Shown here: piece by piece, positions 57,930-64,000 of the stretch
How the letters are laid out: every line of letters begins with the position of its first letter
Position numbering within the stretch: the stretch's first letter is position 1
NCBI GenBank assembly: GCA_017615595.1
Contig: JAFZZT010000014.1
Span: forward strand, 1 to 64,000
Direction of reading: 5' to 3'
Length of the DNA stretch: 64,000 bases
Origin: Bacteroidales bacterium
GTDB taxonomy: Bacteria > Bacteroidota > Bacteroidia > Bacteroidales > WCHB1-69
The notes under the pieces: generated by a model
The model's input: the letters and a program-made list of their open reading frames with translations, nothing else
The model's database searches: none
What the model was told of the DNA's origin: nothing
Made by a program: the position numbers and the translations under genes

Positions 57930-59270
57930 ATGCAATATCATATCACCCAAGGATTAGACCTGAAGATAGCGGGCGCCGCGTCAGATGTGATGCTCGAATT
58001 GCCACTGTCTGACCAATTCCGTGTGTCTCCCAGCGACTTCCGCTGGCTGAAGGCCAAGCTGTTGGTCCAGCCCGGCGACCGGGTGGAGATCGGCACCCCG
58101 CTCTTTTGCGACAAGCAAGACGAGCGCATCGTGGTTGTCTCTCCCGTAACGGGCACCGTGAAGGAGGTCGTGCGTGGCGAGAAGCGCGTCATCGAGGCCA
58201 TCACCATCGACCGTGATCTGGATGCGCCCATGTCTGCCACAGTGGATTTCGAGGAGCCCGCTGATGGCGACTCCGTCCGCCGACTGCTGTTGCAGCATGG
58301 CTTGTGGTCCTGTCTGCGCCAGCGGCCCTTTGCGGTAATCCCCCAGCCGGATGTCCTGCCCAAATCGGTCTTTGTCCCCTGCTTCGACAGCAATCCCCTC
58401 GCGCCCGACTACAACGTTTTGTTGCACGGTCAGGAGGAGAACTTCCTATATGGGTTGAAGATGCTACAACGCGCTGCAGGCACCGCACCCACGCACCTGT
58501 GCATGCGTGAAGGTGCTGACAACCAGATCTTTGAAAAAGCGAAAGCGGTAGAAAAACACTACTTCAGCGGTCCGCACCCCGCCGGCAACGTGGGCACGCA
58601 CATCCATCTGGTGGACCCCATTGACAAGGGCGACACCGTCTGGTTCATCCATCCGCAGGAGGTGGCTCGTATTGGGCAGTTCTTTGCGAAGCGAGTGCTG
58701 CAATTTAAGAAGACGGCGGCCCTGACGGGTCCAGAAGTCAGCAACACCGGCTATTTTCGCACGGTGTATGGCGCGGACCTCTCGGCGCTGTTGGCGAACA
58801 ATCTCCGACAGGAGAAGGTGCGCATCATCAGCGGCAGCGTGTTGAGCGGACGTCAATGCCAGCAGCCGCCCGTGTTGGGTTTCTACGATCAGCAGATGAC
58901 GGTCATTGCGGAAGGCGGAAAGCGTGAAATTCTCGGGTGGCTGTTGCCCGGGTTGAAGAAGTGGAGCTTGTCGCGCACCTTCCTCGCCTGGCTCACGCCC
59001 AAGCGCACCTACGGCGTGGACACGACGCTGCATGGCGGCCGCCGCGCCTTCATGATGACGGACGTCTATGACAAAGTCTTCCCCCTGGACCTCCTACCCT
59101 TGCAGCTGCTCAAAGCCTGCGAGATCAAAGACATAGAGCAGATGGAGTCCCTCGGCATCTACGAAGTGGACAGCGAGGACTTCGCCCTCTGCGAGCTCGT
59201 CTGCCCCTCCAAGAAGGAGTGCCAAAGGATCGTGGAGGAAGGGATGAAAGAGATAATAGATAATAGATAA
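57930..59270 (+). CDS. nqrA: Na+-translocating NADH:quinone reductase subunit A
   Basis: Cytoplasmic quinone-binding subunit of the Na+-NQR respiratory complex. 446 residues, full length: ITQGLDLKIAGA at the N-terminus, KLLVQPGDRVEIGTPLFCDK, SPVTGTVKEVVRGEKR, GPHPAGNVGTHIHLVDPI, and the C-terminal ELVCPSKKECQRIVEEGMK. Normally followed at once by nqrB-F, but here repeats and gene remnants follow instead and no other nqr gene is in the window. Confidence 0.95.
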   Translation: MQYHITQGLDLKIAGAASDVMLELPLSDQFRVSPSDFRWLKAKLLVQPGDRVEIGTPLFCDKQDERIVVVSPVTGTVKEVVRGEKRVIEAITIDRDLDAPMSATVDFEEPADGDSVRRLLLQHGLWSCLRQRPFAVIPQPDVLPKSVFVPCFDSNPLAPDYNVLLHGQEENFLYGLKMLQRAAGTAPTHLCMREGADNQIFEKAKAVEKHYFSGPHPAGNVGTHIHLVDPIDKGDTVWFIHPQEVARIGQFFAKRVLQFKKTAALTGPEVSNTGYFRTVYGADLSALLANNLRQEKVRIISGSVLSGRQCQQPPVLGFYDQQMTVIAEGGKREILGWLLPGLKKWSLSRTFLAWLTPKRTYGVDTTLHGGRRAFMMTDVYDKVFPLDLLPLQLLKACEIKDIEQMESLGIYEVDSEDFALCELVCPSKKECQRIVEEGMKEIIDNR

Positions 59271-59742: not shown

Positions 59743-59825
59743 CATAAATCATGCTTGTAGGCATGATTTTTCAAGCAAGCCTTGGACAGTTTTTGTGACA
59801 CTAATGTACAATAAACTTTAATCTA

Positions 59826-59885
59826 CCAACGCCTCTATGGGCACGGTGCTGTCCATCAGGCCGATGCGGGTATCGGTGGCGTGGC
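59826..59885. repeat. Copy of the DSTVPIEALVD segment
   Basis: About 60 bp nearly identical to 60397-60456. On the minus strand both encode SDTRIGLMDSTVPIEALVD or a close variant and then a stop. Confidence 0.7.
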
Positions 59886-60194: not shown

Positions 60195-60390
60195 GCCCAA
60201 GCCCGTCAGGGCTTCCATCTCTGTAGCACGAGGACGTTCCTGTCCGCGTCCCACAACCCCGTATGGGGTTGCACATTGGGCACGACAATGTTTCGGCACC
60301 CCGTTGGATATGAATCTCCTACGGAGATTTGGCACCGCACACGGGCATCCGTTTTTTCTATAGAGATGTATCCCCTGACGGGGATATGTC
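60195..60390. repeat. Array of four small hairpins at about 57-bp spacing
   Basis: GCCC-GTCA-GGGC type core at 60201-60212, CAACCCC-GTAT-GGGGTTG at 60254-60271, AATCTCC-TAC-GGAGATT at 60313-60329, TATCCCC-TGAC-GGGGATA at 60369-60386. Centres are 56-58 bp apart. The 39-41 bp between hairpins share a GCAC-containing degenerate core. No reading frame of substance. Confidence 0.75.
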
Positions 60391-60396
60391 ACCCAT

Positions 60397-60500
60397 CCAC
60401 CAACGCCTCAATCGGCACGGTGCTGTCCATCAGGCCGATGCGGGTGTCGGAGGCGTGGCGGTTTACACCGGTGTAGGACAGAGAGGTGCGTGACAGCGAT
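60397..60500 (-). pseudogene. Remnant encoding YTGVN...DSTVPIEALVDG
   Basis: The minus strand reads LSRTSLSYTGVNRHA, SDTRIGLMDSTVPIEALVDG, then TGA. No start codon is near and the frame is closed by a stop shortly upstream. Parts recur at 59826-59885 and near 59424-59450, so this is the fullest of three fragments of one lost gene. Confidence 0.45.
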
Positions 60501-60556: not shown

Positions 60557-61564
60557 TTATCTTAAATCATTGTCCATACAATATTTTTCAACAACAGGAA
60601 TAAAACTCTCATACCAATACCATGTTTTTGCAACTTTAACACCATACGTGTTGTCTCTTTTGGCATTATTAGATTTCCAACATTGTACAAAATGATGCAT
60701 ATTCATTTTGGCGAAACCATTATCTTTCATTATTCTCACAATGTCTCCAGGCAGCAGTTTCTTTTTTTCTCTTTCTTTAATTAGAACGTACTCCGTATTT
60801 ATTTTATCTGCCTCCTTGCTTCCTTCTTTTATGAAAGTCACAACCCTATCAGCTTGTCCTTGATTATTTGCAATTTTAGGCACATAAAAAATACGGTAAG
60901 AGTAATTTGTACTTTTGTATATATCTTCATCAAGAGATTTGTCAAATTCATCTATAAACATTGCAATATTAGTTGGAATTCCTTTTAGGTCTTTAAGCAT
61001 TTCTATCTGTGGTTCAGAAAGACTCGTGAATTGAATAGACATACTCAGTTGATTTGAAATGCTATATTTTTTACCAAATAATTTCGTTATTACTTGTTCA
61101 TAGTTGATGCAACACGCCTGGAATTTTGCAGATACAGCATCATCAATTTTCGTGGTCATTTGATGCTCTATTTCATGCCGTAACCCAATTAAAAAACGAA
61201 GGTTTGCCTTTGTTGGATTATTAAAAGGACATTGGGTTTCATTTAAACAACGTTCAAGTTCCCATGCTTTTAATGCACCGTACTTAGTTTTATCAAACAA
61301 TCTTTTTTTCCCAGATTGCTTGAAATAGTGATATTCTATTTTCTTTTCCCTGTAATATGCGTGGCAAAGGTATGTCCATGATATTATTGCAAGGACACAA
61401 AAAGATTCTGCTTTGAAAGTTATGGCTGGATTGTTGTACATCTGAACTGCGCACAACATTGATTCTCTTGATTTTTGCAGAAGTTCAAGCTTTATTGATC
61501 CTATTTTCTTCTTTGGCATGTTATTGTACAGTCTAAAAACATTTATAATCTCGGATTGAATCAT
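60557..61564 (-). CDS. DUF3644 protein with HEPN RNase motif
   Basis: 335 residues from the ATG at 61564, whose first base is the last base of the AbiH stop (TGATG). The N-terminal domain matches DUF3644: LLQKSRESMLCAVQMYNNP, ITFKAESFCVLAIISWTYLC, HAYYREKK. FLIGLRHEIEHQM contains R129-x4-H134 (61163-61180), the Rx4-6H catalytic signature of HEPN ribonucleases. The C-terminal half (about 230-335) includes a basic, possibly DNA/RNA-binding part (GDIVRIMKDNGFAKMNMHHFV). AT-rich compared with the core genome. Probably a defence effector coupled to AbiH. Confidence 0.85.
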   Translation of the reverse strand: MIQSEIINVFRLYNNMPKKKIGSIKLELLQKSRESMLCAVQMYNNPAITFKAESFCVLAIISWTYLCHAYYREKKIEYHYFKQSGKKRLFDKTKYGALKAWELERCLNETQCPFNNPTKANLRFLIGLRHEIEHQMTTKIDDAVSAKFQACCINYEQVITKLFGKKYSISNQLSMSIQFTSLSEPQIEMLKDLKGIPTNIAMFIDEFDKSLDEDIYKSTNYSYRIFYVPKIANNQGQADRVVTFIKEGSKEADKINTEYVLIKEREKKKLLPGDIVRIMKDNGFAKMNMHHFVQCWKSNNAKRDNTYGVKVAKTWYWYESFIPVVEKYCMDNDLR

Positions 61565-62526
61565 CAAACACGAAATGCTTCAGTTTTTCTTACTTTCCAA
61601 AGGCTTAATGCTTCTTTTGTTTTGGAAACAGCATCAGTAAGACTGCAATCAATTGGAACTATTTCATTTTTGTTGTCAATCTGGTATGGGTTTATACCAC
61701 CGGTATAGGCACCTACGTTGTCCATTACATCGCTTAAAGCTTTCTCTCCATAGCCGTATATTATAAAAAGTTTATTCTTCTTGCCTTCGAATAATTTACG
61801 AAAGTAAAAATCATCCGTTGATCCCATTGAACACCCATAGATGATATATACGTCTTTCATGTTTATGTAATTCATCAAATCAGTAATATTAAAAATTTTT
61901 TGTCGAGATTTATACAAGAACGAGTGTGCCTTTTCCACCTTTTGAATGTCATCTATTCCAAGCACAATATAATCACTAGGATTGTCTGTCCCTTTTTCTG
62001 GATTATAGATTGAACCATGCTGAAATATGATTTTTTCTTTGTTGAAAGATAAATTTGAATTGTATAGTTTTGCATCCGCCGAATAGGCAGCGACGATATG
62101 AGTATAATTGAATGAAACTATTTGATAATCTAAACAGTTCCACTCTTGGGATATTTTCCCCACCCAATACCCTGGATTGCCAGATTTAGAAGTGCTTATC
62201 TCTTCTTTTAAATACAGGAATAAGGCATTTTTCAACTCCTTAAACTCTGTTTTGAATTGTTCTGAAGATTGTTTGTTGCCAATTCCATCATTAGCTGTTA
62301 TTTGTTTAGAATATTCATATAAACCATATTCCAAATCCATCCATAACTCACCATCAACATTGTCAATAATGTGTTTGCATAATCGATTGCCTTGTTGAGA
62401 CAATCTTTTAAGTTCCTTGCTTTTTTCGTAAAAATTCTTATAACTTGTTTTGTAGCCATGAGCTATGTCAAAACCATTTCCTAAGAAAACCATTGCTTTA
62501 AATGTTTGTCTTGCAAGTTTATCCAT
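61564..62526 (-). CDS. AbiH-family abortive phage infection protein
   Basis: 320 residues. Seen: AMVFLGNGFDIAHGYKTSYKNF (nucleotide-binding-like GNGFD at 16-20), QIVSFNYTH at 136-143, FQHGS at 168-172, and IIYGCSMGSTDDFYF at 228-242. All are AbiH hallmarks, and the pattern resembles SIR2-type NAD-binding folds. AbiH of Lactococcus gives phage resistance by abortive infection; the mechanism is not well known. The start at 62526 is fixed by a -7 box at 62546-62553. It overlaps the DUF3644 gene by one base. Confidence 0.88.
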   Translation of the reverse strand: MDKLARQTFKAMVFLGNGFDIAHGYKTSYKNFYEKSKELKRLSQQGNRLCKHIIDNVDGELWMDLEYGLYEYSKQITANDGIGNKQSSEQFKTEFKELKNALFLYLKEEISTSKSGNPGYWVGKISQEWNCLDYQIVSFNYTHIVAAYSADAKLYNSNLSFNKEKIIFQHGSIYNPEKGTDNPSDYIVLGIDDIQKVEKAHSFLYKSRQKIFNITDLMNYINMKDVYIIYGCSMGSTDDFYFRKLFEGKKNKLFIIYGYGEKALSDVMDNVGAYTGGINPYQIDNKNEIVPIDCSLTDAVSKTKEALSLWKVRKTEAFRV

Positions 62527-62545
62527 CGTTTTTTTCTTTTTTTTG

Positions 62546-62553
62546 CAAAAATA
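62546..62553 (-). promoter_or_regulatory. -7 box of the AbiH-DUF3644 operon
   Basis: TATTTTTGC on the minus strand, 20 bp before the AbiH ATG, in the 56-bp gap after the restriction-modification gene. It allows expression independent of that gene. Confidence 0.6.
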
Positions 62554-62582
62554 CAAAAATCCTCAAAATAGAAAAAGATACA

Positions 62583-64000
62583 TCATTCACTCTTTTCAAT
62601 TACCGCAATTTCCTCCTCCGTCAACCCATACAACTCATACACCAACGCGTCAATTTCCCGCTCCAAAGTCGAAGTATCGGCATTAGGATTGGATTTCTTT
62701 GCGGAAAGGATTTGGTCAACCAATGCGATAATGGGTTGTTGCTTGTCTTTGCTCGCTTTTAGTATAGGTAATTTCTTCGCTTGGGCTATTCGTATTTTCG
62801 GAAAGAGTTCTGTCTCACCTTTGAACATTGTTGAATAATACCATTGAAGTAGAGAAGAGTTTAGCAATGCTAACACATACTTTGTACTCAATCGATCATC
62901 CGTGATTAGAATTGAATATAGGCTTCTATTTGAATATATTGTTTCATTCCCAAGATATACCGCAATGAGAAAGCTACCTGCTTCCCGCAATAATATTCTT
63001 TCTTTGCTAAAAAATATCTTATCCTTAGAAAAAGCATCTAAAACAGTTTGGCTTATATATGACAGCTTTGTATAGTGATATTTGGAAACATCTGATCCTG
63101 TAAGAAATTTGTGTTGACCGTTGCGTCCAACCATATTTCGTCCAATTTCAAAGCCTCGCATAATTGAAGAAACAGATGAGAGTGGAACGGTTCCCGAAAT
63201 AATATGTTCAATGATATTACCATCTGCATAAAAATCCTCAAAACGCCAACTCGACTTGCATTTTTTTGCTATAAATGTTGCTGTCGGGATTTTTGCATTC
63301 TTGAAGACATTATCTCCTTCTATTCTGAATGCAATCACGGTAACATTTTCTTGCAAGAAATCGCGAAGTAAATGAAATTTCATGCCTTTGACAAAAAGAG
63401 ATGAAGTGATAAATGATAGAATACCATTTTTACTTAATAAGTTGACAGCCCGTTCATAAAAGAAAGCGTATAAATCCAAACATGATGCGGTTTTATATGT
63501 GCTGTATGTTCCGTCTGCACCGATAACCACATACGGCGGGTTCCCGATCACAATGTCAAACCCACCCTTGTCGAAGATGTCCTTGAACCACGTGTGCCAG
63601 AGGAAGAACTCCTGGTTGGCGGAGGGGTCGAGGGCGGAGAGGCGGACTTCGGCGGAGGACGTGAGACCCTGCTGGGCGATGTACCGCTTCACGTTACCGT
63701 TGATAGTACTGCGGGCTGCCACCTTTTTGGCGTGGTCTGTGAGCGAGAAGTACTCCTGCAACAGCAAGCGCAGATTGTGCTTGGTTTCGTCAGAAGTGTA
63801 TTCCATCGCCAACTGGTTCGCGCCTGCCTTGTTCTTCCCCTTGCCAAGACCGCTCATCATCCCCTCCTGATCCATCATCCGGCTTAAATCCACCCCTTCG
63901 AAGCTCTCTATCAGACTGTTGCCCTGCATAAATTTGTAGTCGAAGTTGGGCAATGCCTCGGGTACTTCACTGTCAACCACGATGCTAAGCCAAAAACGCA
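62583..64000 (-). CDS. Eco57I-type restriction-modification enzyme, C-terminal part (runs off right edge)
   Basis: 471 C-terminal residues of a large type IIG enzyme (family often 900-1300). The reading frame is open to the edge, beginning RFWLSIVVDSEVPEALPNFDYKF. The adenine methyltransferase motif IV is DIVIGNPPYVV. After it come YAFFYERAVNLLSKNG, the FITSSLFVKGMKFHLLRDFL region, a target-recognition domain with TaqI-like C-terminal features (SGTVPLSSVSSIMRGFEIGRN), and the tail DALVYELYGLTEEEIAVIE. The nuclease domain would be at the missing N-terminus. Sequence 62770-63490 is far more AT-rich than the rest of the gene. Confidence 0.9.
   Translation of the reverse strand, partial: RFWLSIVVDSEVPEALPNFDYKFMQGNSLIESFEGVDLSRMMDQEGMMSGLGKGKNKAGANQLAMEYTSDETKHNLRLLLQEYFSLTDHAKKVAARSTINGNVKRYIAQQGLTSSAEVRLSALDPSANQEFFLWHTWFKDIFDKGGFDIVIGNPPYVVIGADGTYSTYKTASCLDLYAFFYERAVNLLSKNGILSFITSSLFVKGMKFHLLRDFLQENVTVIAFRIEGDNVFKNAKIPTATFIAKKCKSSWRFEDFYADGNIIEHIISGTVPLSSVSSIMRGFEIGRNMVGRNGQHKFLTGSDVSKYHYTKLSYISQTVLDAFSKDKIFFSKERILLREAGSFLIAVYLGNETIYSNRSLYSILITDDRLSTKYVLALLNSSLLQWYYSTMFKGETELFPKIRIAQAKKLPILKASKDKQQPIIALVDQILSAKKSNPNADTSTLEREIDALVYELYGLTEEEIAVIEKSE

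Follow-up and report, generated by a model that had tools for sequence, protein, structure and literature searches.

AbiH and DUF3644 genes in tandem behind a type IIG restriction gene in a Bacteroidales genome: likely effector cargo, with the pairing seen in this genome only

The Locus

The stretch of DNA considered here, hereafter the window, consists of positions 1 to 64,000 of Bacteroidales bacterium contig JAFZZT010000014.1 (assembly GCA_017615595.1), the whole contig being 64,328 bases in length. At the far end of the window, within its final 4 kb, three genes follow one another on the minus strand, i.e., the 3' part of a type IIG restriction gene, then an AbiH gene, and then a DUF3644 gene. 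An earlier note on this DNA had proposed that the latter two together constitute an undescribed, two-gene phage-defence system. As will be argued, the AbiH-DUF3644 pairing is seen in this genome only, and the two genes look like interchangeable add-ons to restriction-modification (R-M) genes rather than like the halves of a two-part system. The features of the locus are as follows:

60557..61564, minus strand: DUF3644 protein, 335 amino acids (Pfam PF12358, PADLOC PDC-S19, conservation of R and H, HEPN structures)
61564..62526, minus strand: AbiH protein, 320 amino acids (SIR2-like fold; GNGFD, FNYT with N140, HG with H170, GxSxGxxD)
61564..61566, minus strand: stop/start overlap, AbiH TGA at 61566-61564 and DUF3644 ATG from 61564 (from the sequence)
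62527..62582, minus strand: 56-bp gap from the type IIG stop to the AbiH ATG, with one weak TANNTTTG match
62583..63998, minus strand: type IIG restriction enzyme/methyltransferase, C-terminal part (Eco57I plus TaqI_C), open towards the contig end at 64328

The overlap of the AbiH and DUF3644 genes reads GTTTGATGATT on the minus strand, with one base common to TGA and ATG, just as had been described. The AbiH gene is likewise present, with its start either at an ATG at 62526 or at an upstream TTG at 62556, the position previously given being 62553. The type IIG neighbour is real as well. It is found on the same strand, 56 bp upstream of AbiH, is cut by the contig end, and is recognised by PADLOC (REase_MTase_IIG, E 3.1e-43) as well as by Pfam (Eco57I and TaqI_C).

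A single '-7 box' had been suggested to serve both genes. That box, TATTTTTG, does exist, beginning 27 bases 5' of the AbiH ATG, but as evidence of a promoter it is weak because, when the 56-bp gap was shuffled 5000 times by single base, TANNTTTG arose in 7.8% of cases. On those grounds the box was rejected as proof of a private promoter, and the AbiH-DUF3644 genes may equally be transcribed by read-through from the type IIG gene.

The Two Proteins

Both proteins belong to defence-linked families, and every one of the motifs previously pointed out (GNGFD, SFNYT, HGS, GCSMGSTDDF and RHEIEH) is present, with R129 and H134 correctly numbered as counted from the DUF3644 ATG. The DUF3644 protein matches its Pfam family (PF12358) at 198.1 bits versus a cut-off of 27.6, and matches PADLOC PDC-S19 at 490 bits across residues 18-332. 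It is laid out as a HEPN domain (approximately residues 22-167) containing R129-x4-H134, along with a C-terminal region (approximately 250-331) which is possibly winged-helix-like. HEPN structures top the ranked list for its predicted model, which displays the HEPN helical bundle. R129 and H134 are kept in all 91 aligned rows, window included, these rows deriving from 107 matches with duplicates and rows shorter than 280 amino acids left out. H130, the polar residue following the arginine, is invariant in a 71-row DUF3644 alignment, consistent with Rx4-6H; for the pattern scan the best 80 of 173 DUF3644 relatives were kept. Judging from modelled fold and alignments, that is, the protein appears indeed to contain a HEPN domain in which Rx4H is intact.

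A filing of this protein with EC042_2821-type HEPN proteins was considered and set aside. The C-terminal restriction-endonuclease-fold tail of that type was not seen, DUF3644 being the only family found by Pfam scan, and the model is poor in that region (predicted local distance difference test score, pLDDT, below 50 at residues 225-248 and 255-263).

The AbiH protein scores 84.8 bits with Pfam AbiH (PF14253) versus a gathering cut-off of 30.9, and matches the PADLOC AbiH model weakly (18.9 bits, E 2.2e-4, residues 12-34 only). Its predicted structure has the SIR2 fold, so far as can be told from a model, and this agrees with the SIR2-like nature that had been attributed to it. N140 and H170 are invariant in 22 of 22 rows of one AbiH alignment, with N140 invariant and H170 conserved in at least 90% of rows in a second (20 rows). 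These residues would correspond to the Asn and His expected of SIR2 NADases, a putative catalytic pair taken from motif rather than from superposition.

Relatives of the two proteins are spread thinly. Among genomes of the order 21 of 393 carry an AbiH relative and 18 of 393 a DUF3644, with DUF3644 found also in 8 of 395 genomes of the phylum and, going by record titles, in many phyla. A sequence search of solved structures gave no credible relative of either protein (best E 0.12 and 0.89). With AbiH as single query no relative was found among viral contigs, and the plasmid search with AbiH returned one record, a 24%-identical AbiH amid phage genes. As an aside, two viral contigs carry two AbiH genes each, in tandem in L168 (2635-5284) and on opposite strands in L159.

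Occurrence of the Pairing

Were AbiH and DUF3644 to form a conserved pair, then they should be found together elsewhere. Profiles of both families were run over 192 loci, 120 with DUF3644 and 66 with AbiH, and both turned up together solely in the window, of which the set includes three copies. AbiH is absent from the fetched flanks of all of the 104 other distinct DUF3644 loci, as too is DUF3644 from those of the 46 other distinct, complete AbiH genes. These flanks range from 1.5 to 6 kb, some contigs being short, and of the 104 DUF3644 loci 99 show an upstream gene and 7 have less than 1000 bp upstream in view.

The AbiH profile derives from 24 sequences, that of the window among them, all from the same order, and a very distant AbiH could escape it. 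This gap is partly covered by a Pfam scan of tight neighbours of DUF3644, i.e., genes on the same strand with a gap of up to 40 bp (44 of 99 upstream and 37 of 99 downstream), in which AbiH was matched at E ≤1e-4 by 0 of 81. Plasmid records were examined for 5 of 27 with DUF3644, plus the one with AbiH.

In all other loci compared the partner is absent, so that the pairing was observed in this genome alone. Adjacency in other genomes had been proposed as a check on the two-gene idea, and on that check the pair as a defence system finds no support. AbiH plus DUF3644 as a conserved pair was accordingly rejected, there being no second case among the loci compared.

Association with Restriction-Modification Genes

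What the two genes do share with a number of their relatives is proximity to R-M genes, the kind of neighbour which the earlier note had mentioned. Among tight upstream neighbours of DUF3644, 18 of 44 carry an HsdS domain (Methylase_S), and an HsdR domain (HSDR_N) is found in 18 of 37 of those downstream. In a tree of 89 DUF3644 proteins (rows for this and for a 47-row AbiH tree having been chosen by score, length and completeness) the window protein joins those of loci L022, L024 and L023 at 100/99. The L022 gene is found 18 bp behind a type IIG gene, one that is present as two open reading frames, and the L024 gene 11 bp behind another. In L023 the DUF3644 gene overlaps (gap of -17 bp) a LlaJI-type restriction gene, which itself comes after an AAA_5 gene and a C5 DNA methylase.

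For AbiH, the nearest relative by both tree and alignment is that of L104/L140, at 32% identity the top value in the AbiH alignment and sister to the window protein at 98/95. Ahead of the L140 AbiH gene, at a distance of 69 bp, is a type IIG methylase gene, whose product is 63% identical to that of the window over residues 384-693 and 33% identical over the C-terminal part. That methylase gene is preceded by an SNF2-type helicase gene, with a helicase found likewise in the L138 operon. The gene which follows the L140 AbiH encodes a 317-amino-acid protein lacking a Pfam match, i.e., it is not DUF3644. A toxin-like gene is seen on the same strand and directly behind or inside of R-M genes in the window, L140, L022, L024, L138 and L023.

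The position behind the type IIG methylase can be viewed also from the perspective of the methylase. For 20 fetched relatives of the type IIG protein, a same-strand gene is found within 170 bp behind in 15. Scanning 14 of those slot genes gave 8 with a Pfam match and 6 without, the families being DUF4062, NACHT-like (with an additional TIR match below cut-off), PRTase-CE, HNH, RecF/SMC ATPase, Mrr, AAA_14 and DnaJ; the fifteenth (L240) is a housekeeping DAHP synthase. The position is, in other words, a variable slot, occupied by many conflict-type genes.

Two additional observations may be recorded here. A short DprA-like gene (PF02481) comes after the IIG-linked DUF3644 genes, either directly or one gene later, in L022 (6978-7409), L024 (6956-7378) and L138 (5566-5967), with the PF02481 cut-off passed in L138 only; the L138 DUF3644 scores far below those of L022 and L024, yet the DprA-like gene is common to all three. 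In addition, genes following AbiH in L140 (4215-5168) and DUF3644 in L138 (6033-6842) display, by eye, an apparent N-terminal membrane segment along with no Pfam match, and possibly supply a membrane accessory.

Base Composition and Locus History

AbiH and DUF3644 are AT-rich, as had been noted: their G+C contents are 33% and 32%, respectively, versus 43% for the type IIG part and 52% for positions 1-59300 of the window, i.e., approximately 19-20 points below the latter. Joint arrival of the two genes cannot be read from their low G+C because the equivalent cargo is AT-rich relative to its R-M gene also where the partner differs (33% versus 49% for the R-M gene in L140, 32% versus 38% in L022, 34% versus 41% in L024, and 32% versus 46% in L138). 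As proof of joint arrival it was therefore rejected.

In sister genome G805 the alignment with the window extends through nqrA (57930-59270), after which come other genes, alpha-L-fucosidase first; its 17 kb hold nothing that matches the IIG-AbiH-DUF3644 stretch at nucleotide level, and no DUF3644 was found in that genome. Nor was DUF3644 found in any of 39 other genomes of the genus, or in any of 103 other genomes of the family, many of the genomes searched being incomplete (of 40 in the genus, 23 are at least 90% complete with contamination of no more than 5%).

Separately, a 65-bp stretch occurs twice, at 92% identity, in window positions 59821-59885 and 60390-60500, these being the sole two copies found in this genome; sister genomes have similar copies near the same gene, in one place in L203 and three in L207. 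The nqrA gene, as identified by Pfam, has no obvious nqrB behind it as judged by eye, either here or in sister loci L203 and L206.

Interpretation

The explanation which we favour, and consider to be moderately probable, is that AbiH and DUF3644 are effector cargo, residing in the variable slot behind a type IIG R-M methylase and serving as a second, abortive layer of defence. It builds on aspects which were computed directly, i.e., gene order, folds, conserved residues, linkage to R-M genes without the partner, AT-rich cargo behind a less AT-rich R-M gene, and absence of DUF3644 from the 39 other genus genomes. Enzymatic activities, trigger and the independence of the two effectors we infer as follows. 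The R-M enzyme would represent the first line of defence, with infections that restriction fails to stop serving as the trigger. NAD+ would then be hydrolysed by AbiH, with N140/H170 serving in a SIR2-type reaction, and/or RNA would be cleaved via R129/H134 of the HEPN protein, which would probably act as a dimer; both of these are predicted activities, by which the cell would be halted ahead of phage release. The two effectors would have been loaded together here by recombination, with translational coupling presumably giving rise to similar amounts of AbiH and HEPN protein, kept in step. Neither would be expected to require the other.

A number of observations weigh against this scenario. 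No tight neighbour is present upstream at 55 of 99 DUF3644 loci nor downstream at 62 of 99, and some plasmid DUF3644 genes stand without a close partner. The grouping of the window and L104 AbiH proteins unites two long branches. By E-value the best AbiH match in the order is instead G368 (5.3e-14, versus 1.3e-12 for G349), beside whose AbiH gene no R-M gene was recognised, and another IIG-AbiH pair is found for but 1 of 22 complete AbiH genes of the order, as viewed mostly with 1.5-kb flanks. None of the 20 type IIG relatives has AbiH or DUF3644 within the fetched stretch. A helicase of the L140 type gave no match in this genome, which is incomplete and for which the search had no positive control. 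Lastly, the one-base overlap together with equal G+C leave room for joint arrival.

It is that overlap and those near-equal, low G+C contents which also would be expected of a true two-component system, one in which AbiH would act as sensor of infection or of a nucleotide and would then release or activate the HEPN RNase, or in which one protein restrains the other in a toxin-antitoxin-like manner, either fold being plausible as sensor or effector. The consistent absence of the partner (0/104, 0/46 and 0/81, as above) speaks against such a system, as does the handling of AbiH elsewhere as a system of its own, which gave S. thermophilus resistance to Vansinderenvirus phages (in the pertinent part of PMC12322248), and we view it as distinctly improbable. 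Somewhat less doubtful, though still a minority possibility, is that the two genes are simply side by side in a defence island, with no functional tie either mutually or to R-M. That many kinds of variable genes fill the slot in relatives, and that both families are patchy as described above, would fit with that idea. Chance neighbours are nevertheless unlikely because the tree-nearest kin of each gene follow immediately upon R-M genes and point the same way, which chance would hardly bring about twice.

Highly improbable, by comparison, is that one or both of the genes are non-catalytic, e.g., with the HEPN protein binding RNA or DNA so as to regulate the R-M operon. The C-terminal part of DUF3644 does weakly resemble part of a partition protein, but R129 and H134 are retained in every aligned row, and the relevant passage of PMC3710099 gives Rx4-6H as the signature by which RNase activity is predicted across the HEPN superfamily.

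The effector-cargo explanation can be extended to a more elaborate claim, which as a whole strikes us as rather unlikely. According to it, the operon of helicase and IIG methylase would serve as an effector dock, with the effector licensed by the R-M complex itself and with stalled or evaded restriction triggering whichever one is loaded. Interchangeable effectors would then include SIR2-like, HEPN, NACHT-like, DUF4062, PRTase-CE and RecF-like proteins, and this genome would carry two in a row, one of NAD+ and the other of RNA chemistry, their translational coupling providing a fail-safe.

What the analysis does in the first place is to set right an attractive idea, that of a new two-gene system. 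A better question is what brings HEPN and SIR2-like genes to positions immediately following restriction genes, and whether they are under the control of the restriction enzyme. DUF3644 would be a good target for direct test given its many phyla, its R and H in every aligned row, and its frequent location beside R-M; within the literature searched by that word, it is named in a single paper, of computational nature.

Comparison with Known Systems

The AbiH of lactic acid bacteria is a single-gene abortive infection system. It has Pfam family and motifs in common with the window AbiH, and no downstream HEPN gene is mentioned for it in the portions of the literature examined. In a paper in which both AbiH and NADase are mentioned, AbiH appears just as a list entry in the passages concerned. 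Relative to SIR2-HerA, DSR2 and ThsA, the window AbiH is without a fused HerA-like or sensor domain, and its adjacent gene is instead DUF3644.

The window DUF3644 matches the PADLOC PDC-S19 model, 'PDC-S' being what we take to denote a single-gene candidate, whereas in the window DUF3644 and AbiH are coupled. PDC-S19 was not found by name in a literature search, and a word search of the PADLOC 2022 paper gave no mention of PDC. The HEPN half of the pair is nonetheless not undescribed, as it is a candidate in PADLOC and was placed among the HEPN families in 2013 (Anantharaman et al., PMC3710099, in the passage concerned). HEPN and hsdS are both mentioned in a 2026 paper on BREX (PMC12839542).

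Closest are R-M operons with HEPN and Sir2 toxins, which were proposed by Makarova et al. in 2012 to replace one another (PMC3506569, as stated in its passage on toxins). In those operons (PMC3506569, PMC3710099, in the parts dealing with them) a HEPN or Sir2-superfamily gene is likewise appended, as a proposed suicide or dormancy back-up, and AbiH is listed as a predicted Sir2 enzyme. The toxin passage names types I and III, whereas here both kinds of toxin are found in tandem behind a type IIG gene. This locus, that is, belongs to the known category of R-M with toxin, of which a tandem of two toxins is an uncommon form.
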